Positions 2,831 to 25,286 of a stretch of DNA of 64,000 nucleotides are shown in pieces (the first letter of the stretch is position 1; every line of letters starts with the position of its first letter). The DNA is from an uncultured Muribaculaceae bacterium. Lineage in GTDB: Bacteria > Bacteroidota > Bacteroidia > Bacteroidales > Muribaculaceae. Where the stretch lies: the NCBI GenBank assembly GCA_947629175.1, contig CANRCT010000005.1, positions 1 to 64,000 of the forward strand, read 5' to 3'. The notes beneath the pieces are model-generated. The model made no database searches. It worked only from the letters and a program-made list of their open reading frames with translations, and was not told where the DNA came from. A program made the position numbers and the translations under genes.

Positions 2831-5800
2831 ATGAAATTAGATACGTTCATTAACCGCCCGGTGCTGTCGACGGTAATCTCGATATTCATCGTGCTGCTGG
2901 GTCTGATCGGCCTCACATCGCTGCCGGTCACCCAATTCCCCGACATCGCGCCTCCTACGATACTCGTGTCGACCACCTATCAGGGCGCCAACGCCCAGGC
3001 CGTGCTCAACTCCGTCATAGCCCCGCTTGAGGAGTCGATCAACGGCGCCGAGGGCATGACCCACATGGAGTCGACAGCCACCAACACCGGTTCGGCCGAC
3101 ATCACAGTGTACTTCAAACAGGGCTTCAACCCCGACATGGCTGCCGTCGACGTGCAGAACCGCGTGTCGAAGGCCCTCAACCTGCTCCCCGCCGAGGTGA
3201 CCCAGGTGGGCGTGCAGACGGCCAAGCGCCAGACCTCCATGCTTCTGATGGTGGCCCTCTATGACGAGTCGGGCAACTATTCCATGGAGTTTATCGACAA
3301 CTATGCCAAGATCAACATGATCCCTCAGCTGCAGCGCGTGTCGGGCGTGGGCGACGTCATGTCGTTCGGCGCCGACTATTCGATGCGCATATGGCTGAAG
3401 CCCGAGGTGATGGCCCAGTACGGCCTTATGCCCTCGGACATCACCGGAGTGCTGGCCGAGCAGAACATCGAGGCCGCTCCCGGCGCATTCGGCGAGCAGG
3501 GCGACCAGAGCTTCCAGTACACGATGAAGTACAAGGGACGCCTGACCACTCCCGAGCAGTTCGAGGACATAGTGATATCGGCCAAGCCCACCGGCGAGAT
3601 ACTGCGCCTGGGCGATGTGGCCGAAGTGGAGTTGGGCCGACTGACCTACGGCTTCTCCAACTCTCTCAACGGCAAGGTATCGACATCGTGCATCGTGTTC
3701 CAGACCGCGGGCTCCAACGCCACCCAGATCATCAACGACTGTCTGAAGGTGGCCAAGGATATGGAGAAGGATCTCCCCGCCGGCCTGAAGATAGCGATCC
3801 CGATGAACAACAACGACTTCCTCAACGCCTCGATCCATGAGGTGATCAAGACCCTCATCGAGGCGTTCATCCTGGTGTTCTTCGTGGTATACGTGTTCCT
3901 GCAGGACATCCGCTCCACGATCATCCCGGCCATCGCCATCCCGGTGGCCCTCATAGGCACATTCTTCTTTATGAACCTGATCGGATTCTCGATCAACCTC
4001 ATCACTCTGTCGGCTCTCGTGCTTGCGATCGCGATTGTGGTCGACGACGCGATAGTGGTGGTCGAGGCGGTGCACGCCAAGCTCGACGTGGGCTACAAGA
4101 ACTCCCGCCGTGCGGCCATCGACGCCATGGGCGAGATCGGCGGCGCCATCATCTCGATCACCCTGGTGATGATGCTTGTGTTCATCCCGGTGTCGTTCAT
4201 GACCGGCACCACGGGCGTGTTCTACCGCCAGTTCGGTCTGACCATGGCGATCGCCATCGGCATCTCGGCGCTCAACGCCCTGACGCTGTCGCCGGCCCTC
4301 TGCGCCGTGTTCCTCAAAGCCCACGGCGACGACTCCTCGCTCAAGGAGCGCATGGGTAAGGCCTACGGCGCTGCCGCCGAGGCAGTGGTCGGACAGGCCA
4401 AGCGCCGTTTCACCCTCGACCTGCCCCCGCTGATCACGTTCGCTTTCCTGGCCGCCACGATCACCTTCATGGTGCTCGGATGGTATAATCTGGCTCACCC
4501 GGTGAAGCTCGTCATCGCCTCCGTCTGCGCCGTGGTGACCATCCTCGGCATCTTCGGCAAGCGCTTTCACAAGGGCTTCGAGATCGGCTTCGGCCGCATC
4601 ATGAAATATTACAAGAAGGGCACTACGTGGTTTATCAACCACAAGATCACGTCGTTCTCTCTCGTGGGCGTGGCAGTGGCCATCCTTGTGTGGCTCATGA
4701 GCGTCACCACCTCCACCCTTGTGCCCAACGAGGATACGGGTGTGCTCTTCTGCATGCTCGACATGCCTCCCGGCACGTCGCAGGAACGCACCGAGGCCGT
4801 TCTCAATCAGGTGGACGGCATCATCGGTTCGGTGCCCGAAGTGGAATACCGCCAGAAGATCATGGGCTACAGCTTCATGGCCGGCCAGGGATCGACCTAC
4901 GGCACGATCATCATCAAGCTGAAGAACTGGGAGGAGCGCAAGCGCGCCGACCAGTCGTCCGACGCTATACTGCGCAAGCTCTACGGCATGACTTCGGTAG
5001 TCAAGGACGGCCGCGTGGTGCTCTTCGCTCCGCCTATGATCACCGGCTACTCGCTGACCAACGGCTTCGAGATCAAGATGCAGGACAAGACCGGCGGCTC
5101 GGTGGAGGACTTCTTCGCCGTCGTCCAGGGATTCCTCGCCCAGCTCAACCAGCAGCCTGAGGTGCAGGTGGCCATGACTACGTTCAACCCCACCTTCCCG
5201 CAGTATCTCGTCGACATCGACGCCGCCAAGGCCAAGCAGGCCGGCCTGTCGCCCCGCGAGATCCTGAGCACGCTGCAGGGATATTACGGCGGCATGTACG
5301 TCAGCAACTTCAACCGTTTCGGCAAGATCTACCGCGTAATGATGCAGGCGTCGCCCGAATCGCGCGTCAGCCCCGAGACCCTCTCGCTCATAAAGATACG
5401 CAACGGCGGCGAAATGGCGTCGCTCTCCAATTTCGTGACCATGCAGAAGGTCTACGGCCCCGACCTGCTCAACCGCTTCAACATGTTCCAGTCGATCTCC
5501 GTCACCGGCAACCCGGCCCCGGGCTACACCTCCGGCGACTGTCTGGCCGCCATCACCCGCGTGGCGCAGGAGACTCTGCCCCCGGGCTACGGCTACGAAT
5601 ATTCGGGCATGACCCGCGAGGAGGCCTCAAGCGGCGCCGGCAGCACCACGGCCATCATCTTCGGCCTCTGCCTGCTCTTCGTCTACCTGCTTCTCTCGGC
5701 TCAGTATGAGAGCTACATCCTGCCCTGGTCGGTGATCTTCTCGATACCGTTCGGACTGATGGGCACCTTCATCTTCGCCCAGATATTCGGAGTGTCCAAC

Positions 5801-6220: not shown

Positions 6221-7609
6221 ATGAAAATCAATCGCATCATAATATCGTCGGCAGCCGCCCTGGCCCTCACGGGCCTGGCGGGCTGCAACATGTACGGCAA
6301 GTTCAAGATGCCGGAGGACTCGCAGCTCGGACAAGCCTATGCAGAGGCCAAGCAGGCTCCTGTCGACAGCGCGGCGTTCGGCAACCTGCGCTGGCAGGAG
6401 GTGTTCACCGATCCGGTGCTCACCGACCTTATCTATCAGGCCCTCGACAACAACAAGGATCTGCGCAACGCCAAGCTCAATGTGGATATCGCGGCAGCTA
6501 ACCGTCTTGGCGCCCGTCTGGCCTATCTCCCCTCGCTGGCCCTGACCCCCAACGGCGCCGGCGCGAAATATTTCGACGTCACCGACATGACCTGGACCTA
6601 CCAGATCCCTGCCGCCGCAAGCTGGGAGGTGGACATCTTCGGACGCCTGCTCAACTCCAAGCGCGGCGCCGAGGCATCCTTCCGCCAGAGCGAGGCCTAC
6701 CGTCAGGCCGTGCGCTCGCAGATCATCGGCGGAGTGGCCAACTGCTACTACACCATAGCCATGCTCCAGCAGCAGCTCGACCTGAGCCGCCGCACGGCAG
6801 AGCTCTGGGCTGAGAACGTCACCACCATGAAAGACCTCAAGGAGGCCGGACGCGTCAACGAGGCCGCCGTGGTGCAGAGCGAGGCGCAGTATCTGAGCAT
6901 CCTCGGCTCCATCAAGGATCTTGAGGACAATCTCCACAAGGCCAACAACTCCATGTCGCTGCTCATGAACACCATGCCCATGGAGTGGGTGACCTCTGAA
7001 AACGCCGCCCTGAAAGCACCCGAGATACTCCGCGAGGAGATACCGATGCGCGAGCTCGCCGCACGCCCCGACATACGCGCCGCCGAGGAGACCCTCGCGG
7101 CAGCCTACTATGCCACCGCCGGCGCCCGCTCGGCATTCTATCCGTCGCTCAACATCACCGCCAACGGCGGCTTCACCGACCTCGTGGGAGGCATGGTGAT
7201 GAATCCGGGCAAATGGTTCATACAGCTTGCCGGACAGCTCACGGCTCCGCTCTTCGCCCGCGGACAGAACATAGCCCGCCTCAAGGGCGCCAAGGCCCAG
7301 CAGGAGCAGGCGATGAACAACTTCGAGTACGCCCTGCTCTCAGCCTCGGCCGAAGTGTCAAACGCCATGACTCTCTACCAGAAGAGCACCGAGAAGTCGA
7401 CCCTGCTTCAGCAGCAGGTGGCCAAGCTCGCCACATCGGTGGAGATCACCGAAGAGCTTCTGAAGCTCGGAGGCACCTCCACCACCTATCTCGAAGTGCT
7501 GACAGCCCAGCAGCAGCTGCTGTCGGCCCAGATGTCGGAGCTCTCCTGCAACCTGACGACCGCCCAGGCAGTGATCAATCTCTACCAGTCGCTCGGCGGC
7601 GGCCGGTGA
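6221..7609 (+). CDS. Outer-membrane efflux channel, TolC/OprM (NodT) family lipoprotein
   Basis: Outer-membrane factor of the tripartite pump, 462 aa. The signal peptide ends in LAGC with Cys22 as the predicted lipid-modified residue. Two repeats of the outer-membrane-efflux fold follow, each with long Ala/Gln/Glu-rich coiled-coil helices (for example the QSEAQYLSILGSIKDLEDN region and the TAQQQLLSAQMSEL region). The family norm is 450-490 aa, so it is full length. It starts 15 bases after the pump stop, consistent with one transcript. Confidence 0.94.
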   Translation: MKINRIIISSAAALALTGLAGCNMYGKFKMPEDSQLGQAYAEAKQAPVDSAAFGNLRWQEVFTDPVLTDLIYQALDNNKDLRNAKLNVDIAAANRLGARLAYLPSLALTPNGAGAKYFDVTDMTWTYQIPAAASWEVDIFGRLLNSKRGAEASFRQSEAYRQAVRSQIIGGVANCYYTIAMLQQQLDLSRRTAELWAENVTTMKDLKEAGRVNEAAVVQSEAQYLSILGSIKDLEDNLHKANNSMSLLMNTMPMEWVTSENAALKAPEILREEIPMRELAARPDIRAAEETLAAAYYATAGARSAFYPSLNITANGGFTDLVGGMVMNPGKWFIQLAGQLTAPLFARGQNIARLKGAKAQQEQAMNNFEYALLSASAEVSNAMTLYQKSTEKSTLLQQQVAKLATSVEITEELLKLGGTSTTYLEVLTAQQQLLSAQMSELSCNLTTAQAVINLYQSLGGGR

Positions 7610-12593: not shown

Positions 12594-14438
12594 TTATTTG
12601 GTATCCTTTTTGGATTCATTCGAGATTTCCTTATCAGAGTCAGAGTCTATCTTTTTAGTTTCATTGACAGATAGAATTCCACCCTGAGAAGGATAGGTGA
12701 ATCCTCTTAGTTTATCTAATCGGGTGTCACATTCGGCCGCTTGATACAGTCCGGATAAATCATAGCCTGTATAATATTTTACAAGAGTGGGGTCAAGTTC
12801 TATTTTGGGGATGTAAGTTCTCGTGGATACGCATGTTACATCTTCGCCGCCAAAGTTGGCCGTTATTGTTACGGTTACTTTCAGTCGATAGTGATTTTTG
12901 TAATATTTGAGCTCTCCTCTTTGGTATATTTTATGTTCAGGTGCAAAAACGTATTTACTATATGGCCATTCCGCTTTCGTCGTTGGGTCATTGTTTTCTA
13001 TTCCATAATATGTCAAACTTGCTCTCATCATATCCTCGCAAATGATAAGTTTTCCCCCAGCTTTATCGGTGGTTTCGATAAGCTTATTGCGATTTGTCAT
13101 CAAATGTTGAGTTATACCATTTACCCCATTTGACGTCAGACTGCCGCGATCTGTGATATCGTCCGTATGGTGACCGGGGATCAAATCCAATGTAGATCCA
13201 ATATAACTAACAGGCGTTAGTTCAACTTTCTGGTTCTTTATATATTGCTTAAGTTCAGGATTGATTGATAGATTATATTTATAGTTTCCGCTTGCCGTGA
13301 ATCCATAAGTTAACTGATCGGGTGAGCCAGTTGCTGCTCCAATCATTATACCAACAGGATGAATATATATGGTAGGATTCTCTTTAAGATTCCAGTTTCC
13401 TAAAAGCTTTGCCCTATCAATAGGAAGAGTTACAGTTCCTATTGATGGTATTGAAGTTACTTCACCTTCCATCGTTCCGCTTATAGTTCCTGTAGTATGT
13501 GTGGTAAATTGTAGATCCTGTACGTTTTGCTGAGTTGAATTATCTCGACGGCTTACGAAAGATTTGAATATTTTATTCAATCCCTTTTTTAGTATTTTTT
13601 CTAAAATCGGACTAATTCCTCCGCGACTGTCATTCAAACCATATCTTTCATTTAAGATGCTTTCAGCTGATTCACCATATGCCGAAAACATTTTATTGGT
13701 TTGTTTAGTCATTGCACTATTTTGTACATAAGAAGTCAAGGTTCCATGGGCTGTTGAGTTCATCTCGCAGTCAAGATTGACATTAAATCCTAAAGACGCT
13801 TTCGAAGTAATGTTTAATGTACAAACTCCATTATAATCGGGATTGTAGGAGACATTAAAAAGTATCATTTCCCATCCTGATGTGAATAATCCGTTGTTGT
13901 TACTTATATTCGATACTATGGCCTGTTTATTATCGTCTAAAGAAGCCGGGAGGTTGATGTCTGATAGGTCATTCAATAGTCCAGGGTATGTCCCATTTTC
14001 CAATGTAATTATCCAATATCCGCTAGAAGCGGTGCCTATATTATTGACATATAGAAAAACTTTCATTTGGGAGGAAAGCTGGTTATATAAAATTATATAG
14101 TCAGCGGCATCGTCACTCTCAACGTCTCCACCAGCTAAAGAATGATGGAGTAATGTCCAGCCGTCCTCTTTTTTTATATCATCAAGGAAATCTTTTCTGA
14201 CGGAGGTCTGTACATGATTAGAATTCCAAGGAAGTCCAATCACAGAACCGTTGCGGAAGTTCCATGTTTGGTAATTCTCCCAATTGGATGAAAATGCATC
14301 TCCAGAACGGCTTAAGAGCAGATCAGAGTTTGCAGCTTTTTTTTGTGGCATCACGGGGTCGTCGGAACAACTCCCGAAAACAATTGCAGACACCGTTATG
14401 ACGGCGATCATGCATAAAGTAAAAATGTTTTTAAGCAT
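12594..14438 (-). CDS. Hypothetical large lipoprotein
   Basis: No recognised family. The 614-aa protein carries a lipoprotein signal peptide with Cys24 in FGSC followed by Ser-Asp-Asp. The mature protein is Asn-, Ser-, Thr- and Tyr-rich, without further membrane spans, as expected of a surface-exposed beta-sheet protein. The C-terminal 25 residues are strongly charged (Lys, Asp, Ser, Glu). It is the promoter-proximal gene of a two-gene leftward unit with the LRR-like lipoprotein. Base composition is AT-rich relative to the surrounding housekeeping genes. Confidence 0.7.
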   Translation of the reverse strand: MLKNIFTLCMIAVITVSAIVFGSCSDDPVMPQKKAANSDLLLSRSGDAFSSNWENYQTWNFRNGSVIGLPWNSNHVQTSVRKDFLDDIKKEDGWTLLHHSLAGGDVESDDAADYIILYNQLSSQMKVFLYVNNIGTASSGYWIITLENGTYPGLLNDLSDINLPASLDDNKQAIVSNISNNNGLFTSGWEMILFNVSYNPDYNGVCTLNITSKASLGFNVNLDCEMNSTAHGTLTSYVQNSAMTKQTNKMFSAYGESAESILNERYGLNDSRGGISPILEKILKKGLNKIFKSFVSRRDNSTQQNVQDLQFTTHTTGTISGTMEGEVTSIPSIGTVTLPIDRAKLLGNWNLKENPTIYIHPVGIMIGAATGSPDQLTYGFTASGNYKYNLSINPELKQYIKNQKVELTPVSYIGSTLDLIPGHHTDDITDRGSLTSNGVNGITQHLMTNRNKLIETTDKAGGKLIICEDMMRASLTYYGIENNDPTTKAEWPYSKYVFAPEHKIYQRGELKYYKNHYRLKVTVTITANFGGEDVTCVSTRTYIPKIELDPTLVKYYTGYDLSGLYQAAECDTRLDKLRGFTYPSQGGILSVNETKKIDSDSDKEISNESKKDTK

Positions 14439-15966: not shown

Positions 15967-16521
15967 ATGGATCATCTTCTACAGATAGCGCAGCGGCTCA
16001 AAGGGCTGCGCGAGGCGATGGATATCACAGTCGAGGCGATGGCCGCGATGTGTGATGTCGACGCGGATAAATACGCCCTTATGGAGCGGGGCGAGGCCGA
16101 CATAGCGATGAGCACTCTGCAGCGCATCGCCTCGAAATGCGGCGTAGAGCTGCCGGCGCTCCTGTTTGGCGACGAGCCGCGCATGAGCAGCTATTTCGTC
16201 ACACGCCGCGGCCAGGGAGCCGTCGTGGAGCGGTCGAAGGCCTACCGCTACCGGTCGCTTGCCGCCGGTTTTGCCGGACGCAAGGCCGATCCGTTCATCG
16301 TCACCGTGCATCCGCTTCCGGCCGGAGCGCCACTGCCTCCCGAGACGAGCCATGCCGGACAGGAATTCAACCTCGTGCTCGAAGGCTCGCTGCGGCTCCA
16401 GGTGGGCGGCCGCACGGTAGAGCTCGCCGCCGGCGACAGCATATACTTCAACGCCGAGCTGGCACATCGCGCGATCGCCACGGGCGACGCACCGGTGAAA
16501 TTCCTCGCTATAATCTTCTGA
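15967..16521 (+). CDS. XRE-family regulator with C-terminal cupin
   Basis: Predicted transcription factor of 184 aa. Residues 1-65 form a helix-turn-helix of the XRE/Cro type. Residues about 110-184 form a cupin barrel (HAGQEFNLVLEGSLRLQVGG, then AAGDSIYFNAELAHRAI) that could sense a small ligand. This architecture is frequently encoded beside an AMP-forming acyl-CoA synthetase in Bacteroidales, as it is here 35 bases downstream. The likely role, by inference, is control of that enzyme in response to a carboxylic acid or acyl-CoA. Confidence 0.88.
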   Translation: MDHLLQIAQRLKGLREAMDITVEAMAAMCDVDADKYALMERGEADIAMSTLQRIASKCGVELPALLFGDEPRMSSYFVTRRGQGAVVERSKAYRYRSLAAGFAGRKADPFIVTVHPLPAGAPLPPETSHAGQEFNLVLEGSLRLQVGGRTVELAAGDSIYFNAELAHRAIATGDAPVKFLAIIF

Positions 16522-16556
16522 AATATCCCTCAGCATAACCACTGCAACAAAGCATC

Positions 16557-18230
16557 ATGATAGAACGTTTCACCGAACGTATCCGCTTCTCCTCCCAACA
16601 GGATTTCATCGACAATTTCAGGATAAAGATACCGGAGCATTTCAATTTCGCCTACGACGTGGTAGATGCCTGGGCCGCCGAGCAGCCCGACAAGCGCGCC
16701 CTGCTCTGGACCGACGACAAGGGACACGAACGCTCCTACACATTCGCCGAGCTGAAGGATCTGACCGACCGCACGGCAGCGTGGCTCAGCTCTCTCGGCA
16801 TAGGACGCGGCGACATGGTGATGCTCATACTGCGCCGGCGCGTGGAGTTCTGGCTCTCGATCATCGCGCTTCACAAGATAGGCGCCGTGGCGATTCCCGC
16901 TACCCATCTGCTGACGGCAGGCGATATCGTCTACCGCTGCAATGCCGCCACTATAAAGGCGATAGTGTGCGTGGGCGACGAAAACGTATTGCCCCACGTG
17001 ATCGAGGCGATGCCTGAGTCGCCCTCGGTCGAGACGCTGATAAGCGTAGGCCCGGAAGTGCCCGAAGGGTTCCTCAGCTTCGCCGAGGGGATAGCCTCCG
17101 CCGGCGATTGGAAGCGCCCCGAGCCGCTCAACGACAACGGCGACACGATGCTGATGTATTTCACCTCAGGGACTACGGGCGAGCCGAAGATGGTGGCCCA
17201 CGACTTCACATATCCCCTCGGACATATCGCCACCGGCTCGCTGTGGCACGATCTCGGTCCCGACGACCTGCACCTGACCATAGCCGATACCGGCTGGGGC
17301 AAAGCCGTGTGGGGCAAGCTCTACGGGCAGTGGATCGCCGGAGCCACGGTGTTTGTCTACGAGCATGAGAAATTCACTCCAGCCGACATGCTCCGCATGA
17401 TAGAGCGCCACCGCATCACCACTCTCTGCGCACCTCCCACGATATTCCGCTTCCTCATACGCGAGGATCTGAGCAAATATGACCTCTCGTCGCTCCGCCA
17501 CTGCACGATCGCCGGCGAGGCGCTCAATCCGGCCGTGTTCGACGCTTTCCTGCAACAGACAGGCATAAAGCTGATGGAGGGCTTCGGTCAGACAGAGACC
17601 ACGCTGACCATCGCCACCATGCCGTGGCTCGAACCGCGTCCCGGAGCGATGGGCGTGCCCAATCCGAGCTACGACGTCAGTCTGCTGCTCCCCGACGGCA
17701 CCCCCGCCGAGGACGGCGAGCAGGGCGAGATCGTGGTGAAGCTGCCGGCCGACGGAAGCCGTCCGGCCGGACTCTTCAAGGAGTATTACCGCGATCCGGA
17801 ACTGACGGCCTACGCCACCCGCGGAGGCTACTACCATACGGGCGACCTGGCCTGGCGCGACGAGGACGGCTATCTGTGGTATGTGGGCCGTGTCGACGAC
17901 GTCATCAAGAGCTCCGGCTACCGCATAGGCCCGTTTGAGGTAGAGAGCGCGCTGATGACCCATCCGGCGGTGGTGGAGTGCGCCATAACGGGCGTGCCCG
18001 ACGAGATCCGCGGCCAGGTGGTGAAAGCCACCGTGGTGCTTGCGGCCGGCTGGAAGGACCGTGCCGGCGACGACCTCGTCCGAGAGCTGCAGGACCACGT
18101 GAAGCACACCACGGCTCCATATAAGTATCCGCGTGTCATCGAGTTTGTCGAAGAGCTCCCCAAGACCATCTCCGGCAAGATCCGCCGCGTGGAGATCCGC
18201 CGCCGCGACGCCGCCTCCGGGAAAAAATAG
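16557..18230 (+). CDS. AMP-forming acyl-CoA synthetase
   Basis: Adenylates a carboxylate with ATP and transfers it to coenzyme A; 557 aa, ANL superfamily. The P-loop-like motif YFTSGTTGEPK lies near residue 200, the GFGQTETT motif in the middle, YHTGDLAWRDEDGYLWYVGR and DDVIKSSGYRIGPFEVES in the hinge, and the catalytic-lysine region KTISGKIRRVE near the C-terminus. The set is complete, so the enzyme should be active. Similarity is to acetyl- or medium-chain acyl-CoA synthetases, but the acid cannot be assigned. Its partner XRE-cupin gene lies just upstream in the same transcript. Confidence 0.9.
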   Translation: MIERFTERIRFSSQQDFIDNFRIKIPEHFNFAYDVVDAWAAEQPDKRALLWTDDKGHERSYTFAELKDLTDRTAAWLSSLGIGRGDMVMLILRRRVEFWLSIIALHKIGAVAIPATHLLTAGDIVYRCNAATIKAIVCVGDENVLPHVIEAMPESPSVETLISVGPEVPEGFLSFAEGIASAGDWKRPEPLNDNGDTMLMYFTSGTTGEPKMVAHDFTYPLGHIATGSLWHDLGPDDLHLTIADTGWGKAVWGKLYGQWIAGATVFVYEHEKFTPADMLRMIERHRITTLCAPPTIFRFLIREDLSKYDLSSLRHCTIAGEALNPAVFDAFLQQTGIKLMEGFGQTETTLTIATMPWLEPRPGAMGVPNPSYDVSLLLPDGTPAEDGEQGEIVVKLPADGSRPAGLFKEYYRDPELTAYATRGGYYHTGDLAWRDEDGYLWYVGRVDDVIKSSGYRIGPFEVESALMTHPAVVECAITGVPDEIRGQVVKATVVLAAGWKDRAGDDLVRELQDHVKHTTAPYKYPRVIEFVEELPKTISGKIRRVEIRRRDAASGKK

Positions 18231-18365
18231 ATTCAGGCCTTTAGGTGTTTGGTTAATATGAACTTAATAGATAGAATGATCTTATTTCTTGTGTGGAGGT
18301 TTTTAATGGAGACGATTATTAACTATGATTAACTAATATTAGTTCTCTAGTAGTGGTTAATTGTA

Positions 18366-18373
18366 TATTTTTG
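18366..18373 (+). promoter_or_regulatory. -7 element of the thioredoxin/NVEALA operon
   Basis: TATTTTTG matches TAnnTTTG. Transcription from here gives a leader of about 25 bases to the ATG at 18404 and excludes the longer in-frame start at 18353, which lies upstream of it. Confidence 0.55.
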
Positions 18374-18403
18374 CATAGAGATACAATTGCAAAAACGATA
18401 ATA

Positions 18404-19261
18404 ATGATAAAATATATTGTTCGTATCATTATAATTATGTGTTGTTCGCTTGTTTCTTGCAATGGAATAAGGGAACAACAAGAAACATTTGTATCATTAA
18501 TAGGTCAAGAAATTCATGTCCCTTCTAATTTGGATGTGAGAATTCAACAAGCGGTTTTAGATTACATTCCTCGAGGACGTGATTATACAATGATTGCATA
18601 TATTGATTCTTCAGGTTGCACGTCATGTCGCATGAAGTTGCCGATTTGGAATTCGGTAATCAATGAGTTGAAATCTTATGAAAATGTTGATGTAGACTTT
18701 ATAATGATATTGAATACCACTGAAAAAAGAGAAATAGATTATATGTTAAAGAGGGATAGTTTCCTTTATCCCGTAGTGTTGGATCCAGACGGATCGTTCA
18801 GAGATGAAAATCTATTGCCAAAGGATAATTCATTACACACATTCTTGCTTGATTGTGAAAATAAGATAGTCGCAGTAGGAAATCCTGCTTTTAATCCTAA
18901 AATCAGGGATGTCTATCGGAAAATTATCTCCTCTGGAGCAAAATCCATGGATGCTCGCCCCGGACTGTATTGTGAAGCATCTGTACCAATAGGTGTCGTC
19001 TGTGCGGAAGATACTATAGAGCAAATCGTCTCGCTTCAAAATAAAGGAGATCGGATAATGACCATCCGAGAGATTATTCCTTCAAGTAATAGCTTGAATG
19101 TTGTATGGAAAGACGATACGATAGCACCTTACGATGATCTAACCATGATTTTACAAATCACTTCTGATTCTCGCCAAGGTTCGTTCGTGAGTTATGCTGA
19201 CATTTTTTATAATGAGTGTGATATTCCAGATCGGATAGCGATAAATGGATACACTAAATAA
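18404..19261 (+). CDS. Thioredoxin-fold lipoprotein with DUF1573-like C-terminus
   Basis: Predicted exported thiol-redox protein, 285 aa from the chosen ATG. The signal peptide ends in LVSC with Cys19 as lipid anchor. Residues about 60-180 look like a thioredoxin domain: a strand TMIAYIDSS, then the redox motif Cys72-Thr-Ser-Cys75, then the later strand FLYPVVLDPDG. From about 190 the sequence resembles DUF1573 (VPIGVVCAEDTIEQIVSLQN, then IAPYDDLTMILQITSD and the ending IAINGY). The gene is very AT-rich compared with both neighbours. It is followed after 30 bases by an NVEALA peptide gene and then by a propeller lipoprotein. A role in disulfide handling of the peptide is inference. Confidence 0.78.
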   Translation: MIKYIVRIIIIMCCSLVSCNGIREQQETFVSLIGQEIHVPSNLDVRIQQAVLDYIPRGRDYTMIAYIDSSGCTSCRMKLPIWNSVINELKSYENVDVDFIMILNTTEKREIDYMLKRDSFLYPVVLDPDGSFRDENLLPKDNSLHTFLLDCENKIVAVGNPAFNPKIRDVYRKIISSGAKSMDARPGLYCEASVPIGVVCAEDTIEQIVSLQNKGDRIMTIREIIPSSNSLNVVWKDDTIAPYDDLTMILQITSDSRQGSFVSYADIFYNECDIPDRIAINGYTK

Positions 19262-19291
19262 ATCTATTCAATAAAAAAAAAATCAATCAAG

Positions 19292-19570
19292 ATGAAAAAG
19301 ACAATCATCTCGGCAGCGATAGCTGCCGTGGCAATCACGGGGTTGATAACCGTCAACAGACAGGCATCATCTGAAGCCCAGTTAAACGAAATTCAACTGG
19401 CGAATCTCGAGGCTCTTGCCGAAGAAGAGGAAACGACTGATCCATCAAAATGCTTCGGATGCGGAACCAGTGAGAAAGGGGCTTATTGCTGCACAGTGAA
19501 ATTTATTGGAGCCGGAGGCGTCGTACAGTATTTTACATTGTATAAACCGGCAACGCTGATAAAGCCATGA
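19292..19570 (+). CDS. NVEALA-family small exported Cys-rich peptide
   Basis: A 92-aa protein of the uncharacterised NVEALA family. It begins with a signal/anchor segment (residues 1-21), followed by LNEIQLA and the family motif as Asn38-Leu-Glu-Ala-Leu-Ala43. An acidic run comes next, then a Cys-rich tail with Cys54, Cys57, Cys66 and Cys67, and a short hydrophobic end. The layout (export segment, conserved motif, acidic linker, four-Cys core) resembles a precursor whose C-terminal part may be released, but no processing has been shown. It lies in the middle of a three-gene unit, and its stop overlaps the ATG of the next gene. Confidence 0.82.
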   Translation: MKKTIISAAIAAVAITGLITVNRQASSEAQLNEIQLANLEALAEEEETTDPSKCFGCGTSEKGAYCCTVKFIGAGGVVQYFTLYKPATLIKP

Positions 19571-20640
19571 AGAAATCATCCATCCTGCTTGTTGTCGGGA
19601 TGGGACTGCTCTGCGCATGTTGCAGCATGGAAAAACATGAGACATATGCCGGAAAAGTAGAACTGAAACCTCTTAAAGGCGAAAGATACCTCCCGGAAGA
19701 GGAGTTTACATATCCGCAAAGTCTGCTTTTTGCCGACGATTGTCTTGTTGTCGAAGATTCACGCGATGAGCGCGGAATGCTTGCAATAGTGAATCTCGAC
19801 GGTGCTGACAGTACTACACGGGCATGCCGTATGGGGATCGGTCCCGGTGAATTCATGAACATTCGTGAAGTCAGGTACTCTCCTACAGATTCCACACTGT
19901 CGATATATGACGGTGCGATGGGGAGAGTGCGCCTTTATCATTTTGACAAGGGCAACAGGTCGTTATTGCCTGAAAATATGATATCTGAGATCAGTACGTA
20001 TGATTTCAAGCCGGTGCCTCGCGATATTCTGTCGCTTTCCGGTGGTTTCGCTAGCGATGTGGTGTCGGGTGGAAAGATGTTTGTGCGCTACGACGCCGAT
20101 GGCAAGATGCAGGAGTGTTTCGGCGATTATCCCGGCGACAGGAGCGGAATGGCTGACTCTTTGGCGTTTGCCATGGGTCATCAGGTGATGATGGCGGCCA
20201 ACCCATTGGGTGACAGGATGGTGGTGGCCGGAAGAATGAGCGACTGGCTCGCATTCTATCATATGACGCCCGACGGAATGAAGCTCGAAAAGGAATATTT
20301 CAGCTTTGAGACGGTGCCGGAAGTCAGCACGACAGTCAACGGTAATACGGAGCTGGTGTCGTGCGAAGACAAGCCTGACACCCGCACATGCTTTACCTCT
20401 CTGGCCGCGACCGACAGTCATGTCTACTGTTTCTATCACGGATCTACGGCGCAGGAGCGTGCCGACCGGACTGCCGCTCAAGTATCGATAATGAAATTTA
20501 CCTGGACGGGCGATTTTGTCGAAGCCTACACGGTCGGCGACTGGGTAGTGTCAATCGCGGTCAGCCCTGATGAAAAGTATATGATTGCGATAGTGGTCGA
20601 AGATAACGACGAACTGTCACTGATGCGTTATGAGCTGTAA
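19567..20640 (+). CDS. TolB-like six-bladed propeller lipoprotein (BF3164-like)
   Basis: Predicted lipoprotein of 357 aa with a signal peptide ending in a Cys-rich stretch (LLCACCS, residues 14-20), one Cys of which is the likely lipid anchor. The mature part has the repeating beta-strand pattern of a six-bladed TolB-like propeller (QSLLFADDCLVVEDS, GPGEFMNIREVRYSP, ISIAVSPDEKYMIAI-type blades). This family recurs beside NVEALA genes in Bacteroidales. The ATG overlaps the NVEALA stop by four bases (ATGA), so translation is probably coupled. Ligand or partner unknown; the neighbouring peptide is the obvious candidate. Confidence 0.82.
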   Translation: MKKSSILLVVGMGLLCACCSMEKHETYAGKVELKPLKGERYLPEEEFTYPQSLLFADDCLVVEDSRDERGMLAIVNLDGADSTTRACRMGIGPGEFMNIREVRYSPTDSTLSIYDGAMGRVRLYHFDKGNRSLLPENMISEISTYDFKPVPRDILSLSGGFASDVVSGGKMFVRYDADGKMQECFGDYPGDRSGMADSLAFAMGHQVMMAANPLGDRMVVAGRMSDWLAFYHMTPDGMKLEKEYFSFETVPEVSTTVNGNTELVSCEDKPDTRTCFTSLAATDSHVYCFYHGSTAQERADRTAAQVSIMKFTWTGDFVEAYTVGDWVVSIAVSPDEKYMIAIVVEDNDELSLMRYEL

Positions 20641-20667
20641 CAATCCGGGATGATATACTATAGATTT

Positions 20668-20697
20668 GCCCTTCGGATGCAATGGCTTCCGGAGGGC
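20668..20697 (+). terminator. Hairpin ending the NVEALA operon
   Basis: GCCCTTCGGA (20668-20677) pairs with TCCGGAGGGC (20688-20697), one G-T pair allowed. No strong T run follows, so termination may be partial. Confidence 0.5.
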
Positions 20698-20745
20698 ATT
20701 CAGTTAAAAAAAACAAACATATACGACGGGGCGCGGTATTTTGAG

Positions 20746-20753
20746 TAATTTTG
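20746..20753 (+). promoter_or_regulatory. -7 element of the LolD-like ATPase gene
   Basis: TAATTTTG ends only eight bases before the ATG at 20762, which predicts an almost leaderless mRNA. It also rules out the in-frame TTG at 20741 as the start. Confidence 0.6.
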
Positions 20754-20761
20754 CGGGAGTC

Positions 20762-21427
20762 ATGATAGAGGTGCAGGGCATAAGGAAGAGCTTCGACGGT
20801 CTGCAGGTGCTCAAGGGCATTGACCTGAGGGTGGATGCGGGCGAGATCGTGTCGATAGTCGGTCCGAGCGGGGCCGGCAAGACGACTCTGCTCCAGATCA
20901 TGGGTACGCTCGACCGTCCGGACAGCGGGCGCGTCAGTTTCGACGGCGAGGAGCCGCTCCTGATGAACGACTCGCAGCTGGCGCGGTTCCGCAACCGCAA
21001 TGTGGGCTTCGTGTTTCAGTTTCATCAGCTGCTGCCGGAGTTCACTCTTCTCGAAAACGTGGCCATGCCCGCGCTGATAGGGGGCCGGCGGCGCCCGGAG
21101 GCTTTCGCCGCCGCACGCCGGCTGATAGACTATCTCGGCCTGACGCCGCGGAGCGACCATCGTCCGGCGGAGCTCTCGGGCGGAGAGCGGCAGCGGGCGG
21201 CCGTGGCCCGTGCTTTGGTCAACGACCCGAAGGCCGTGCTGGCCGACGAGCCGTCGGGGAGCCTCGACTCGCGCAACCGCGCGGAGCTCCACCGCCTCTT
21301 CTTCGACCTGAGCCGCGACTTCGGCCAGACGTTCGTGATCGTCACCCACGACGAGCATCTGGCCGCCGACACCGACCGGCGCGTCATGATGGCCGACGGA
21401 ATGATAACATCTATAGAAACCAAATAA
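20762..21427 (+). CDS. ABC transporter ATPase, LolD/MacB type
   Basis: ATP-binding subunit of an ABC system, 221 aa. Walker A is GPSGAGKTT at residues 34-42, the Q-loop sits in [21 protein letters not shown], the signature is [15 protein letters not shown], Walker B is [13 protein letters not shown], and the switch His is in IVTHDEHLA. Sequence and length match the LolD group that powers lipoprotein release from the inner membrane, but MacB-type ATPases are very similar. No membrane subunit is adjacent, which is common for lolD in Bacteroidota. The -7 element directly upstream supports the ATG at 20762. Confidence 0.85.
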
Positions 21428-21448
21428 ACACAGACAAACCAAAAGACT

Positions 21449-22165
21449 ATGAAACTAACAAAGCTCATGGCGATCGTCGCCATCCTGACGGCAACGCTCG
21501 GCTTCACCGCCTGCAACGACAACGGCGGAGACAGCAACATGCTGTATTTCTCCAACGTGGTTACATACGAGGGAAATTCAGGGGGCTACGTCAACTTCTC
21601 GTTTCAGGAGATGAACGACGCGCAGCCCATCATCATCCGCGCACAGGGCCAGATGCCCGCCGACGTCACTATCGGCCGACGCGTGTTCATCTCGTTCTCT
21701 TCAACCTCCACGAATCTTACCGACGGCATGGTGGTGTCGCTCACCCAGTGTGTGTCGATCCCCAATGTGAAGGCTTCGATCAACGAACCGGTTCCCTCCG
21801 ACTGGAAGGATATCAGCTCGATATACCTGCAGACGATATTCCGCAGCGGCAACTGGATCAATCTGGCTGCGCTTGTGCCCAACAATCCCGACAAGACCGT
21901 CACTCCGAAGCTGATGTTCGATCCGGCCACCATCGACGCCGAGTATCCTGAGGCCTATATGATATTCGAGGGGCTCAAGCCGGAGATGGGAGCTGTCAAC
22001 AACGCTACGTATATAGCCACTTATGACATAGCCGATGTGTGGGGGCTTCCCGGCTGCCGCGGCATCAAGATCCATGTCAACAACACCAACAACAGCGTCA
22101 ACGGCGGATCGTCGCAGAGCTGCGAGGTGAGCGAGGGCGGCGAACTTATCACCATCAAGAAATGA
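21449..22165 (+). CDS. NigD-like lipoprotein
   Basis: Exported lipoprotein of 238 aa with a signal peptide ending in FTAC, Cys22 being the predicted anchor. The body resembles the NigD-like family of Bacteroidales: an N-terminal small beta-barrel followed by a C-terminal beta-sandwich (NWINLAALVP, PEAYMIFEGLKPEMG). Function of the family is unknown; the name comes from nig gene clusters linked to bacteriocin-like activity. It starts 21 bases after the LolD-like ATPase. Its stop codon overlaps the next start by four bases (ATGA), so the three genes probably share one transcript. Confidence 0.72.
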   Translation: MKLTKLMAIVAILTATLGFTACNDNGGDSNMLYFSNVVTYEGNSGGYVNFSFQEMNDAQPIIIRAQGQMPADVTIGRRVFISFSSTSTNLTDGMVVSLTQCVSIPNVKASINEPVPSDWKDISSIYLQTIFRSGNWINLAALVPNNPDKTVTPKLMFDPATIDAEYPEAYMIFEGLKPEMGAVNNATYIATYDIADVWGLPGCRGIKIHVNNTNNSVNGGSSQSCEVSEGGELITIKK

Positions 22166-22521
22166 ACCGCGACCCTAAAAACCCGTCGGGCCCGCAGGAA
22201 CTGAAGATAGATTTTCCGCCAGAGACTGCCGACGGCCGCTATGCCAACCTGGCTATAGTGAGCCATGCGCCGACGGAGTTTTTCATCGATTTCATCGCGG
22301 TGACGCCCAATATGCCCCAGGCGCGTGTGCAGAGCCGTATCGTCATGGCTCCGGAGCATGCCAAGGGACTCCTCTTCGCGCTGAGCGACGCCGTGCGCAA
22401 GTATGAGGATGCCTTCGGCGAGATACGCCCCAAGGTGCCCAAAGGCAAGAACGGGGGAGGCGGCGCCCCTTCCGACGGGGGCGGCATCCCCAATCCATTC
22501 ATACAGGGAGGCATGGCCTGA
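22162..22521 (+). CDS. DUF3467 family protein
   Basis: Small soluble protein of 119 aa matching the DUF3467 pattern: GRYANLAIVSHAPTEFFIDF, then MPQARVQSRIVMAPEHAKGLL and a final helix. The C-terminal 25 residues are Gly- and Pro-rich. I placed the start at the ATG overlapping the NigD-like stop, because the longer frame upstream lies entirely inside that gene. Function unknown. A short perfect hairpin spans its stop codon. Confidence 0.8.
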   Translation: MNRDPKNPSGPQELKIDFPPETADGRYANLAIVSHAPTEFFIDFIAVTPNMPQARVQSRIVMAPEHAKGLLFALSDAVRKYEDAFGEIRPKVPKGKNGGGGAPSDGGGIPNPFIQGGMA

Positions 22522-22545
22522 GGCCATGTCCCCCTCTCTCTTTTT
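22512..22545 (+). terminator. Hairpin and pyrimidine tract after the DUF3467 gene
   Basis: CATGGCC (22512-22518) pairs with GGCCATG (22522-22528); the loop is the TGA stop codon itself. A C/T tract ending in five T follows. It probably separates this unit from cysS. Confidence 0.55.
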
Positions 22546-22569
22546 ACGTACCATTCACCAGTCATCCAT

Positions 22570-24057
22570 ATGAAGCAAAACAATCTGGCCCTCTATAACT
22601 CTCTGACACGCACGAAGCAGCTTTTCGTGCCGGTGCATCCGGGAAGAGTGGGCATGTATGTCTGCGGGCCGACGGTCTACGGCGACGGACATCTGGGACA
22701 CGCACGTCCGGCAATAACATTCGACGTGCTCTACCGTTATCTGACCCATCTTGGCTACAAGGTGCGCTACGTGCGCAATATCACCGACGTGGGCCATCTG
22801 GAGCACGACGCCGATTCGGGCGAGGACAAGATAGCCAAGAAGGCGCGGCTGGAGCAGCTTGAGCCTATGGAGGTGGTGCAGCATTATCTCAACCGCTACC
22901 ACGACGCCATGGCACGGCTCAATGTGCTTCCTCCCTCGATCGAGCCCCATGCCTCGGGCCATATCATAGAGCAGATCGACTATATAAAGAAGATACTCGA
23001 CAGCGGCTATGCCTACGAGAGCCAGGGATCGGTGTATTTCGACGTGCCCAAATACAACCGCGACCATGCCTACGGCAAGCTCTCTGGCCGAAATGTCGAC
23101 GAGCTGCTCGCCACGACCCGCGAGCTCGACGGTCAGGACGAGAAGCGCAATCCGGCTGATTTCGCCCTGTGGAAGAAAGCCGCTCCGGAGCATATCATGC
23201 GCTGGCCGTCGCCGTGGAGCGACGGTTTCCCGGGCTGGCATCTGGAGTGCTCCGTGATGAGCGAGAAGTATCTGGGCGAGCCGTTCGACATACACGGAGG
23301 CGGCATGGATCTGAAATTTCCCCACCACGAGTGCGAGATAGCCCAGTCGGTGGCCCATAACGGCCACGACGCGGTGCGCTACTGGATGCACAACAATATG
23401 ATCACCATCAACGGCCAGAAGATGGGCAAGTCGCTGGGCAACTTCATAACGCTCGACGAATTCTTCACAGGCTCACATCCGCTGCTGACGCAGGCCTACT
23501 CGCCGATGACCATACGCTTCTTCATCCTGCAGGCCCATTACCGCGGCACTGTCGACTTCAGCAACGAGGCTCTCCAGGCCTCAGAGAAAGCGCTCCAGCG
23601 CATGCTTGAGGGTCGCCGTCGCCTGCAGCAGCTGAAACCGTCGGAGGAGTCGACTGTCGACGTGGCGGAAATCGAACGCCGATGCTATGAGGCTCTCGAC
23701 GACGACCTCAACACCCCGATGGTGATAGCCGCTCTCTTCGATGCATGCGGGGTGGTCAACCGTGTGAATGACGGCCACGACAAGGCCACGCAGGCCGATA
23801 TCGACGCTCTGACGGCGCTGTTCAACACATTCCTCGGCGATATACTCGGTGTGACCGATGAGCTGTCGGCTTCCGGACAGGGCGCTCAGGCTTCGCTCAA
23901 GCCGTTTGAGGATGCCGTGGAGCTTCTTCTGCAGATCAGGGCCGAGGCCAAGGCTAAGAAGGACTGGGCTACGAGCGACCTTATTCGCGATCGGCTGAAG
24001 GAGATCGGATTCAATGTGAAGGACACCCGCGACGGGTGGGAATGGAGTCTTGCCTGA
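22570..24057 (+). CDS. cysS: Cysteinyl-tRNA synthetase
   Basis: Charges tRNA-Cys with cysteine; 495 aa class I synthetase. The zinc/HIGH region is at Cys32 to His44 ([13 protein letters not shown]), and the second catalytic loop is KMGKS at residues 284-288 followed by LGNFITL. The zinc-site motif HLECSVM and [18 protein letters not shown] are also in place. The C-terminal helical domain contains the usual [19 protein letters not shown] ending. Length is within the normal range, so the gene is intact. The next gene starts 68 bases downstream with no clear terminator between. Confidence 0.97.
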
Positions 24058-24125
24058 ACCGACGTGACGGCGAACAATGCCCGCTCTGCGGACGTTAGTC
24101 AGTAAAACGTTTCAATAGAGGATTC

Positions 24126-25286
24126 ATGGATGCAATAAGTGAAGCTATAAGATATGTTGGGGTGGATGATACAGGCCGACCGACGTTCGAGAACCAGTAT
24201 CCGCTCCCGGCAGGAATGTCATACGACAGCTACGTCGTGGCCGGCACGCGGCGCACGGCCATACTCGACACTGTCGAGGCCGACCGTGGCGACGAATGGA
24301 TGGCCAACCTGGAGGCATCTCTGGAGGGGAGACAGCCCGACTATCTTGTGACGCTGCATATGGAACCCGACCACTCGGCCAACATAGTCAGAGCGCTTGT
24401 GAAATGGCCCGGCCTTAAAGTCGTGGCCGGGCGCCAGGCGCTCCAGATGCTGCCGCAGTTTTTTCCCGGAGTGGATTTCGACGGGCGGACGTATGAGGTG
24501 AAGGAGGGCGACACACTCGACCTCGGCGACCATACGCTCAGGTTTTTTGCCGCTCCGATGGTGCACTGGCCCGAGGTGATGGTAGTGTTTGACGAAGAGG
24601 ATCATGTGCTTTTCTCGGCCGATGCATTCGGCAAGTTCGGCGCTGTGGGTCTCGGCGGCGGCTGGGATGACGAAGCACGGCGCTACTATGCCAATATCGT
24701 AGGAAAGTACGGCAATCAGGTGCAGTCGCTCCTGCGCAAGCTCTCAAAGCTTTCGGTCGATATCATCGCCCCGCTCCACGGCCCGGTGCTGAAATCGGAT
24801 ATAGGGCATTATCTTGGACTATACGACAAATGGAGCCGCTATGAGCCCGAATGTCGTGGCGTGGTAGTGGCCTACGCATCGGTTTACGGGGGTACGGCTG
24901 ATGCCGCGCTGGCTCTCGCAGGCATGCTGCGTGCTTCAGGCAATGAGGTGGTGGCGGTGGATCTGACCGCCACGGATGTGTCGGAGGCAGTCAGTCTGGC
25001 GTTCAAATATGATTCGATGGTGCTCTGTTCGGTGACTTATGATGCCGGGCTTTTCCCCGCCATGCACCGTTTTCTCCACCATCTGCAGACGAAGGGACTG
25101 CGGCGCCGCCGCGTAGGACTTGTGGAGAACGGCACCTGGGCTCCCGTGGCCGCTCGTAAGATGGCCGAAATGCTCGGCGAGATGACCGACATGACTGTCG
25201 TGGGCGATCCGGTGACGATACGCAGCCGTCTCTCCGACAATTCACTGCGTGCGCTCCGCGATCTCGCCACACTCTTCGACAGCTGA
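24126..25286 (+). CDS. Flavodiiron protein (FprA family A-type flavoprotein)
   Basis: Cytosolic O2 and/or NO reductase, 386 aa. The metallo-beta-lactamase-like domain carries all expected diiron ligands: His78, Glu80, Asp82, His83, His147, Asp166 and His218. From about residue 243 a flavodoxin domain binds FMN (VVVAYASVYGGTADAA, then VGLVENGTWAPVAARKM). There is no extra rubredoxin domain, so electrons must come from a separate partner. It faces reverse rubrerythrin across a shared hairpin, making a compact oxygen and peroxide defence locus typical of strict anaerobes. Confidence 0.92.
   Translation: MDAISEAIRYVGVDDTGRPTFENQYPLPAGMSYDSYVVAGTRRTAILDTVEADRGDEWMANLEASLEGRQPDYLVTLHMEPDHSANIVRALVKWPGLKVVAGRQALQMLPQFFPGVDFDGRTYEVKEGDTLDLGDHTLRFFAAPMVHWPEVMVVFDEEDHVLFSADAFGKFGAVGLGGGWDDEARRYYANIVGKYGNQVQSLLRKLSKLSVDIIAPLHGPVLKSDIGHYLGLYDKWSRYEPECRGVVVAYASVYGGTADAALALAGMLRASGNEVVAVDLTATDVSEAVSLAFKYDSMVLCSVTYDAGLFPAMHRFLHHLQTKGLRRRRVGLVENGTWAPVAARKMAEMLGEMTDMTVVGDPVTIRSRLSDNSLRALRDLATLFDS

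Follow-up and report, generated by a model that had tools for sequence, protein, structure and literature searches.

Bacteroidetocins (class IIf) are short exported Cys peptides of the Bacteroidales with a 42-aa mature form (PMC6671954). Their loci encode a 15-16-aa double-glycine leader, an ABC transporter/peptidase, a multi-TM protein, and a linked thiol oxidoreductase thought to make the disulfides, while no immunity protein is evident (PMC6671954). The NVEALA trio described here resembles them in joining a Cys peptide to a thiol oxidoreductase, but its leader is 43 aa long, contains a hydrophobic segment, and ends in NLEALA rather than a double glycine, and NVEALA loci include a propeller partner. 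No ABC transporter/peptidase was found beside the trio or among the recurrent same-direction neighbor families of NVEALA loci. Lacking both the double-glycine leader and the ABC exporter, these loci are therefore not members of the bacteroidetocins; by analogy, the two systems may work similarly.

Polymorphic toxin-immunity systems (e.g., CDI) share with NVEALA loci a constant N-terminus, an exchangeable C-terminus, a cognate downstream gene moved as a module, and extra copies of the partner. Here, however, a short leader takes the place of a large export protein, the cores measure 30-50 aa, and the partner is a 350-aa propeller lipoprotein; the likeness is one of genetic layout only. Plantaricin-type class II bacteriocin loci encode peptides with one common leader, one of which is tied to a signaling gene; each variable peptide has its own partner gene, and a common enzyme processes them by way of a double-glycine leader and an ABC peptidase. 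NVEALA loci likewise have a common leader, a signaling-linked peptide, a partner for each peptide, and a probable shared processing enzyme, but they have a Sec-type leader and a signal peptidase I paralog in a Gram-negative periplasm, and their regulator is a ToxR-like one-component regulator or a kinase.

The TIGR04149 rSAM-modified RiPPs of Bacteroidetes are also leader-core peptides and occur beside DUF5128-type propellers in the same genome as the trio (contig C51), but they carry a double-glycine leader and a radical SAM maturase. NVEALA peptides gave no TIGR04149 hit, and no radical SAM maturase is among the recurrent neighbors of NVEALA loci. On C51 (locus L081, G000:C51:1-12000), DUF5128-type propellers adjoin double-glycine-leader peptides at 3113-3379 and 7233-7499, and this TIGR04149 RiPP locus also encodes the radical SAM maturase TIGR04148 and the pseudo-rSAM TIGR04150; a further such propeller stands beside a double-glycine-leader peptide in locus L040 (C72). 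Propeller lipoproteins may thus partner more than one kind of peptide.

Searches of the open-licence literature found one iron-response table but no study of NVEALA, PF14055, PF15869, PF17170, or DUF5128, nor any Bacteroidales peptide paired with a cognate protein in this way. In B. thetaiotaomicron BT0662-BT0667, genes for an O-antigen ligase, a propeller, and a signal peptidase I are near neighbors, and they appear in the iron-response table with opposite directions of change (PMC10434189). BT0662-BT0667 is possibly a system of the NVEALA-peptide kind.

The window is a 64,000-nt stretch of an uncultured Muribaculaceae bacterium (contig CANRCT010000005.1, positions 1 to 64,000). Its forward strand carries the three genes at 18404-20640, where a sequence-only reading had placed them, and the coordinates and the ATGA overlap agree with that description. 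Gene A (18404..19261, +) encodes a redoxin lipoprotein with a DUF1573-like C-terminal domain, gene B (19292..19570, +) an NVEALA precursor peptide, and gene C (19567..20640, +) a TolB-like β-propeller lipoprotein whose start overlaps the end of gene B through ATGA, a translational overlap. GC content is ~30-40% in gene A, which had been singled out as AT-rich, and ~60% around it; the region as a whole is AT-rich, gene A most strongly. The trio lies within an AT-rich accessory segment (18224..20698, no strand assigned) delimited by blastn of the window against two congeners, G306 and G299, in which the segment is absent and a short spacer connects its two flanks. Window positions 16478-18223 and 20699-24487 form contiguous homology in both, with flanking genes ~79-86% identical. 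Because the segment is missing from these two congeners, the trio is accessory, through insertion or loss. Elsewhere in the window, an AT-rich gene at 12594-14438 (-) encodes a 614-aa exported lipobox protein with no Pfam family above cut-off, and a gene at 21449-22165 (+) encodes a lipoprotein with a weak match to the NigD1/NigD2 family (NF051862, E 2e-4, under cut-off).

The gene A product has a VSC lipobox (Cys19) and a C72-T-S-C75 motif (nt 18617-18628, +; residues 72-75). It scores under cut-off against both Pfam Redoxin (15.3 bits, cut-off 26.6) and DUF1573 PF07610 (25.4 bits, cut-off 26.1), but the predicted folds agree: the AlphaFold2 model contains a ResA/TlpA-type domain, with matches to ResA and StoA, and a PapD/ASH-like domain, bearing out the thioredoxin fold and DUF1573-like tail first proposed. 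CxxC is kept in 54/54 homologs. The cis-Pro that lies opposite CxxC in TlpA/ResA is absent from all 54, which have [FL]-[QH]-[TC]-F-L-L-D at the aligned place; with an invariant CxxC and no cis-Pro, this redoxin is no textbook TlpA. It probably makes or shuffles the disulfides of the peptide core. In loci L119, L124, and L127 of genome G221, DNA homology restarts ~320 nt into the redoxin gene, and the 5′ part of that gene varies with the core and propeller.

Gene B encodes, as initially read, an exported-type NVEALA peptide of 92 aa with four Cys (PF14055, 28.7 bits, cut-off 27). Its leader (19292..19420, +) is of the constant type found on comparison of 189 peptides, with a hydrophobic N-terminus and a linker, and closes in the NLEALA motif (nt 19403-19420, +) whose last residue is Ala43. 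The variable core (19421..19567, +) holds Cys residues 54, 57, 66, and 67.

Gene C matches TolB_like PF15869 (37.8 bits, cut-off 29.2), and its model (pLDDT 90.8) adopts a propeller fold, so the initial call of a TolB-like propeller lipoprotein holds. Its structural matches include NHL-type propellers (Z ~20). The fold is shared with two solved Bacteroides propellers, 3s9j (BVU_1028, DUF4221; Z 17.7, rmsd 4.0, 306 aligned) and 4raa (BF0058; Z 17.4, rmsd 4.0, 289 aligned), but these are only 12-13% identical to gene C, and animal NHL propellers score slightly higher. A sequence search of the PDB with the gene C propeller gave no match. A surface-export-type signal (at least two acidic residues after the Cys) is present in 15/196 propellers; most are without one. 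By whole-genome search, the closest relative of the window's propeller (38%) is in a genome of the same genus (G307; L151 / L232, 9144-11736), where it lies downstream of a different peptide-propeller pair and is itself peptide-less.

The genome of the window has ~17 NVEALA genes: 14 reach E 1e-3, and profile searches add at least three that are more divergent. Some stand in tandem arrays (L068, L069). The genome also gives 13 TolB_like and 28 DUF5128 hits, whose places are partly the same, and the NVEALA genes stand beside members of these families. With 14 + 3 NVEALA genes, nearly all adjoining a propeller, the trio is not a chance arrangement. Across the order, NVEALA was detected at E 1e-3 in 17/295 genomes. 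Among 60 NVEALA genes whose neighborhoods were fetched, 57 are followed within 1.5 kb by a propeller of the same orientation, and of the three outside this count one overlaps its propeller and one lies at a contig end. A redoxin gene lies within 3 kb of 34/60. The propeller and redoxin profiles behind these counts were trained on NVEALA-linked copies, and Pfam hits agree with them in the window's genome. A further scan of GTDB genomes, which made no use of NVEALA and relied on an alignment of a closer redoxin subset because the first set was too divergent, returned 80 loci with NVEALA within 3 kb in 78 and a propeller within 3 kb in 75. Co-occurrence of the three families thus has strong support from both sides. 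The refuting pattern named in the sequence-only reading, NVEALA genes mostly standing without their partners, is not what is seen for the propeller, which is nearly always present; a redoxin is near only 34/60 of them.

Other families recur in the 80 redoxin loci: a signal peptidase I paralog (40/80), a 650-aa protein that ends in an F5/8-type domain and weakly matches transglutaminase (51/80), and a Wzy_C membrane protein with TPRs (24/80). The trio, the signal peptidase, the regulator described below, and the 650-aa protein gave no PADLOC model match. Two rearranged stretches were also seen. Locus L074 (G000:C32, ~1500-1900) has a leader copy and a redoxin 3′ end between two propellers, with a PF14055 match but no recognized full gene, and looks like a remnant or a rearranged unit; in L118 (G110:C39), a second leader copy, 96% identical, lies ahead of the next propeller, and no peptide gene is called there.

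The NVEALA motif coincides with a boundary in DNA homology. In within-genome paralog pairs, identity reaches 98-99% across the upstream DNA and leader, whereas core and propeller resemble each other no more than unrelated pairs do. In 76 such pairs from 21 genomes, the median distance between the end of homology and the final base of the motif is 0 nt (IQR -1 to +10), and in 86% it is within 20 nt; pairs from one genome are not independent, and the pattern recurs genome by genome. Most exceptions are young duplicates whose propellers are related. B. fragilis provides a direct case: in strain S82 two NVEALA genes lie in tandem, and Q1F2 has a single gene whose leader is that of the first and whose core is that of the second, with the two homologies overlapping by 17 nt within the NVEALA codons, which places the crossover in the motif. 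A boundary at the motif at the DNA level requires recombination. These comparisons show a peptide gene built of a constant leader ending in N-[VI]-E-A-L-A and an exchangeable core, with NVEALA marking the module joint; the leader is common to the copies and exchanged independently of the core-propeller pair. Leader/core modularity, the linked signal peptidase, and the divergent regulator are additions to the sequence-only reading.

Cores and propellers are correlated in a way that leaders and propellers are not. Among 278 cross-genome pairs with similar propellers, the cores fall in the top 5% of core similarity in 91%, and the leaders in the top 5% of leader similarity in 4%; without the largest class, the values are 92% and 12%. 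Many separate propeller clusters span at least two genomes, each with its own core Cys pattern. When every core/propeller pair was included, a rank Mantel test was only weakly positive (p 0.03; 0.06 with cross-genome pairs alone), as the majority of pairs do not rise above noise. It was replaced, by a choice made after its outcome was seen, with a permutation test on the similar tail. In the first set, 12/13 propeller-similar pairs rank among the top 21 by core similarity (permutation mean 0.24, p ~1/5001).

The window's own trio follows the same pattern. In the compared set, its propeller is closest to one from Parabacteroides goldsteinii (L166; 120 bits, next 67). The peptide before that propeller has the core KCGGCSTSYSYFCCT, compared with KCFGCGTSEKGAYCCT in the window; it is the best of 175 matches for the window's core, a match reached by 3/2000 shuffles, while its leader ranks 135th. 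Sequence comparison of this kind shows the variable core to be matched to the propeller gene after it, the two traveling together across genomes. The propeller is probably a specific periplasmic partner that binds its cognate core; such binding, proposed in the sequence-only reading, gains indirect support from the cross-genome pairing. Orphan peptides, in which NVEALA is followed directly by a redoxin gene, were considered as a case against an obligate partner and set aside, given that 15/15 genomes checked keep a propeller of the conserved class described below.

The motif varies little across the 189 distinct peptides: it ends in Ala, rarely Gly or Thr, and the residue two before the end is Ala, rarely Met, Leu, or Thr. 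Most of these residues are tolerated at the corresponding positions of signal peptidase I sites (A-x-A rule), and the precursor is probably cut after EALA. The distance of ~23 residues from the hydrophobic segment to the EALA site is unusual for this enzyme. A signal peptidase I paralog scoring >140 bits is found in 11/17 NVEALA-positive genomes versus 0/23 NVEALA-negative genomes, in which the score is at most 98 bits; 6/17 positive genomes have no paralog above 140. The paralogs keep the Ser motif in 46/48 and the Lys motif in 47/48. In the window's genome, one lies beside a Wzy_C gene on another contig and a second adjoins a divergent NVEALA peptide, so that many peptides may depend on a single processing set. 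The Cys count of variable cores is even in 101/127 cases (expected 64 ± 6). These cores are acidic and hydrophilic: their median net charge is -2 and their hydropathy is low (GRAVY ~-0.6).

A candidate regulator accompanies a subset of loci. Divergent genes next to NVEALA genes belong to one homology group in 42/44 cases, a ToxR-like membrane protein that combines a periplasmic domain with OmpR-type DNA binding, or in some loci a histidine kinase. The peptides beside this regulator are of one conserved class (C-x3-G-x-[ILV]-x-C) in 34/35 cases versus 31/154 elsewhere, an arrangement that looks like an inducer peptide next to its regulator. Regulator-linked loci are of the Bacteroides/Parabacteroides type and contain the linked signal-transducing regulator expected of a peptide pheromone. 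The window's genome contains no close homolog of the regulator, near its NVEALA loci or elsewhere, and no member of the conserved peptide class.

The trio is read, with moderate confidence, as one member of a multi-copy, modular exported-peptide system whose likeliest use is lineage-specific peptide recognition or signaling. Sec would export the precursor, whose hydrophobic N-terminal segment would keep it anchored until a signal peptidase I paralog, from within the locus or from another part of the genome, cleaves after E-A-L-A at an A-x-A site. The periplasmic redoxin lipoprotein would form or shuffle the core disulfides, and the released acidic, hydrophilic core would bind its cognate propeller lipoprotein with high specificity. 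Strain- or lineage-specific recognition would be the most likely use; in Bacteroides and Parabacteroides, the one conserved peptide class would be read out through the divergently encoded membrane regulator, with the variable peptide-propeller pairs adding further specificities. Against this stand the spacing before EALA, the six genomes without a paralog, the few surface-export signals, and the absence of both regulator and conserved class from the window's genome. A fuller version is put forward tentatively: an undescribed intercellular peptide system of Gram-negative gut bacteria in which the NVEALA leader serves as both processing signal and recombination joint, disulfide peptides are each read by a dedicated propeller, and a conserved Bacteroides/Parabacteroides pheromone controls its locus through the ToxR-like regulator.

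The strongest competitor, though itself somewhat unlikely, is bacteriocin-like antagonism, with the cores as toxins against relatives and the propeller lipoprotein as cognate periplasmic immunity. It draws on the polymorphic toxin-immunity layout of constant leader, variable core, and cognate downstream gene, on the joint movement of core and propeller while leaders are swapped, on arrays in which propellers outnumber peptides (L114, L115), on the retention of the conserved-class propeller, and on the bacteroidetocins, Cys peptides with a linked thiol oxidoreductase that are toxins. The charge and hydropathy of the cores are nevertheless unlike those of membrane-active peptides, signaling-type regulators adjoin the conserved class, and known toxin or immunity models gave no match. 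The genetic layout suits either reading; recognition or signaling is favored over toxin-immunity on the nature of the cores and the presence of regulators.

An envelope redox or stress sensor is improbable. In such a scheme, the Cys state of a periplasmic peptide, set by the redoxin, would be read by the propeller and relayed to the membrane regulator, which would fit the predicted export or lipid anchoring of all parts and the linkage of redoxin and regulator to the conserved class; extreme core diversity and module exchange would be unexpected in a housekeeping sensor, and the window's NVEALA loci have no such regulator nearby. Still less probable is a propeller enzyme in which the peptide would be a structural or cofactor subunit, like the small Cys-rich subunit of methylamine dehydrogenase, which has a comparable outline of parts (propeller MauB, thioredoxin-like MauD, and MauE). 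A MauE-family protein occurs in a single locus (L142), on which ground this was rejected as the main reading; beyond Cys, no core residue is conserved for a cofactor, and cores differ between copies in one genome. Divergence of core and propeller by rapid point mutation, with the leader kept by selection, is hardly credible and was ruled out. In its favor, selection on the leader alone would preserve its protein sequence, but near-identical leader and upstream DNA precede a gene at unrelated-propeller level and the junctions, including the B. fragilis crossover, fall in the motif at the DNA level.

The trio is one copy of a widespread, unstudied system of gut Bacteroidales in which small disulfide-type peptides are interchangeable behind a constant export leader, each kind with a matching propeller; it looks like a system for recognition, signaling, or antagonism. 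Pfam families of unknown function (NVEALA, TolB_like, and part of DUF5128) gain a joint, testable role, and the NVEALA motif is defined as a module joint and probable cleavage site. Matched peptide/propeller pairs are available in culturable B. fragilis, P. vulgatus, and P. goldsteinii. If the signaling reading is true, the system would be a communication route among dominant gut bacteria; if antagonism is true, it would be a large reservoir of narrow-spectrum peptides.
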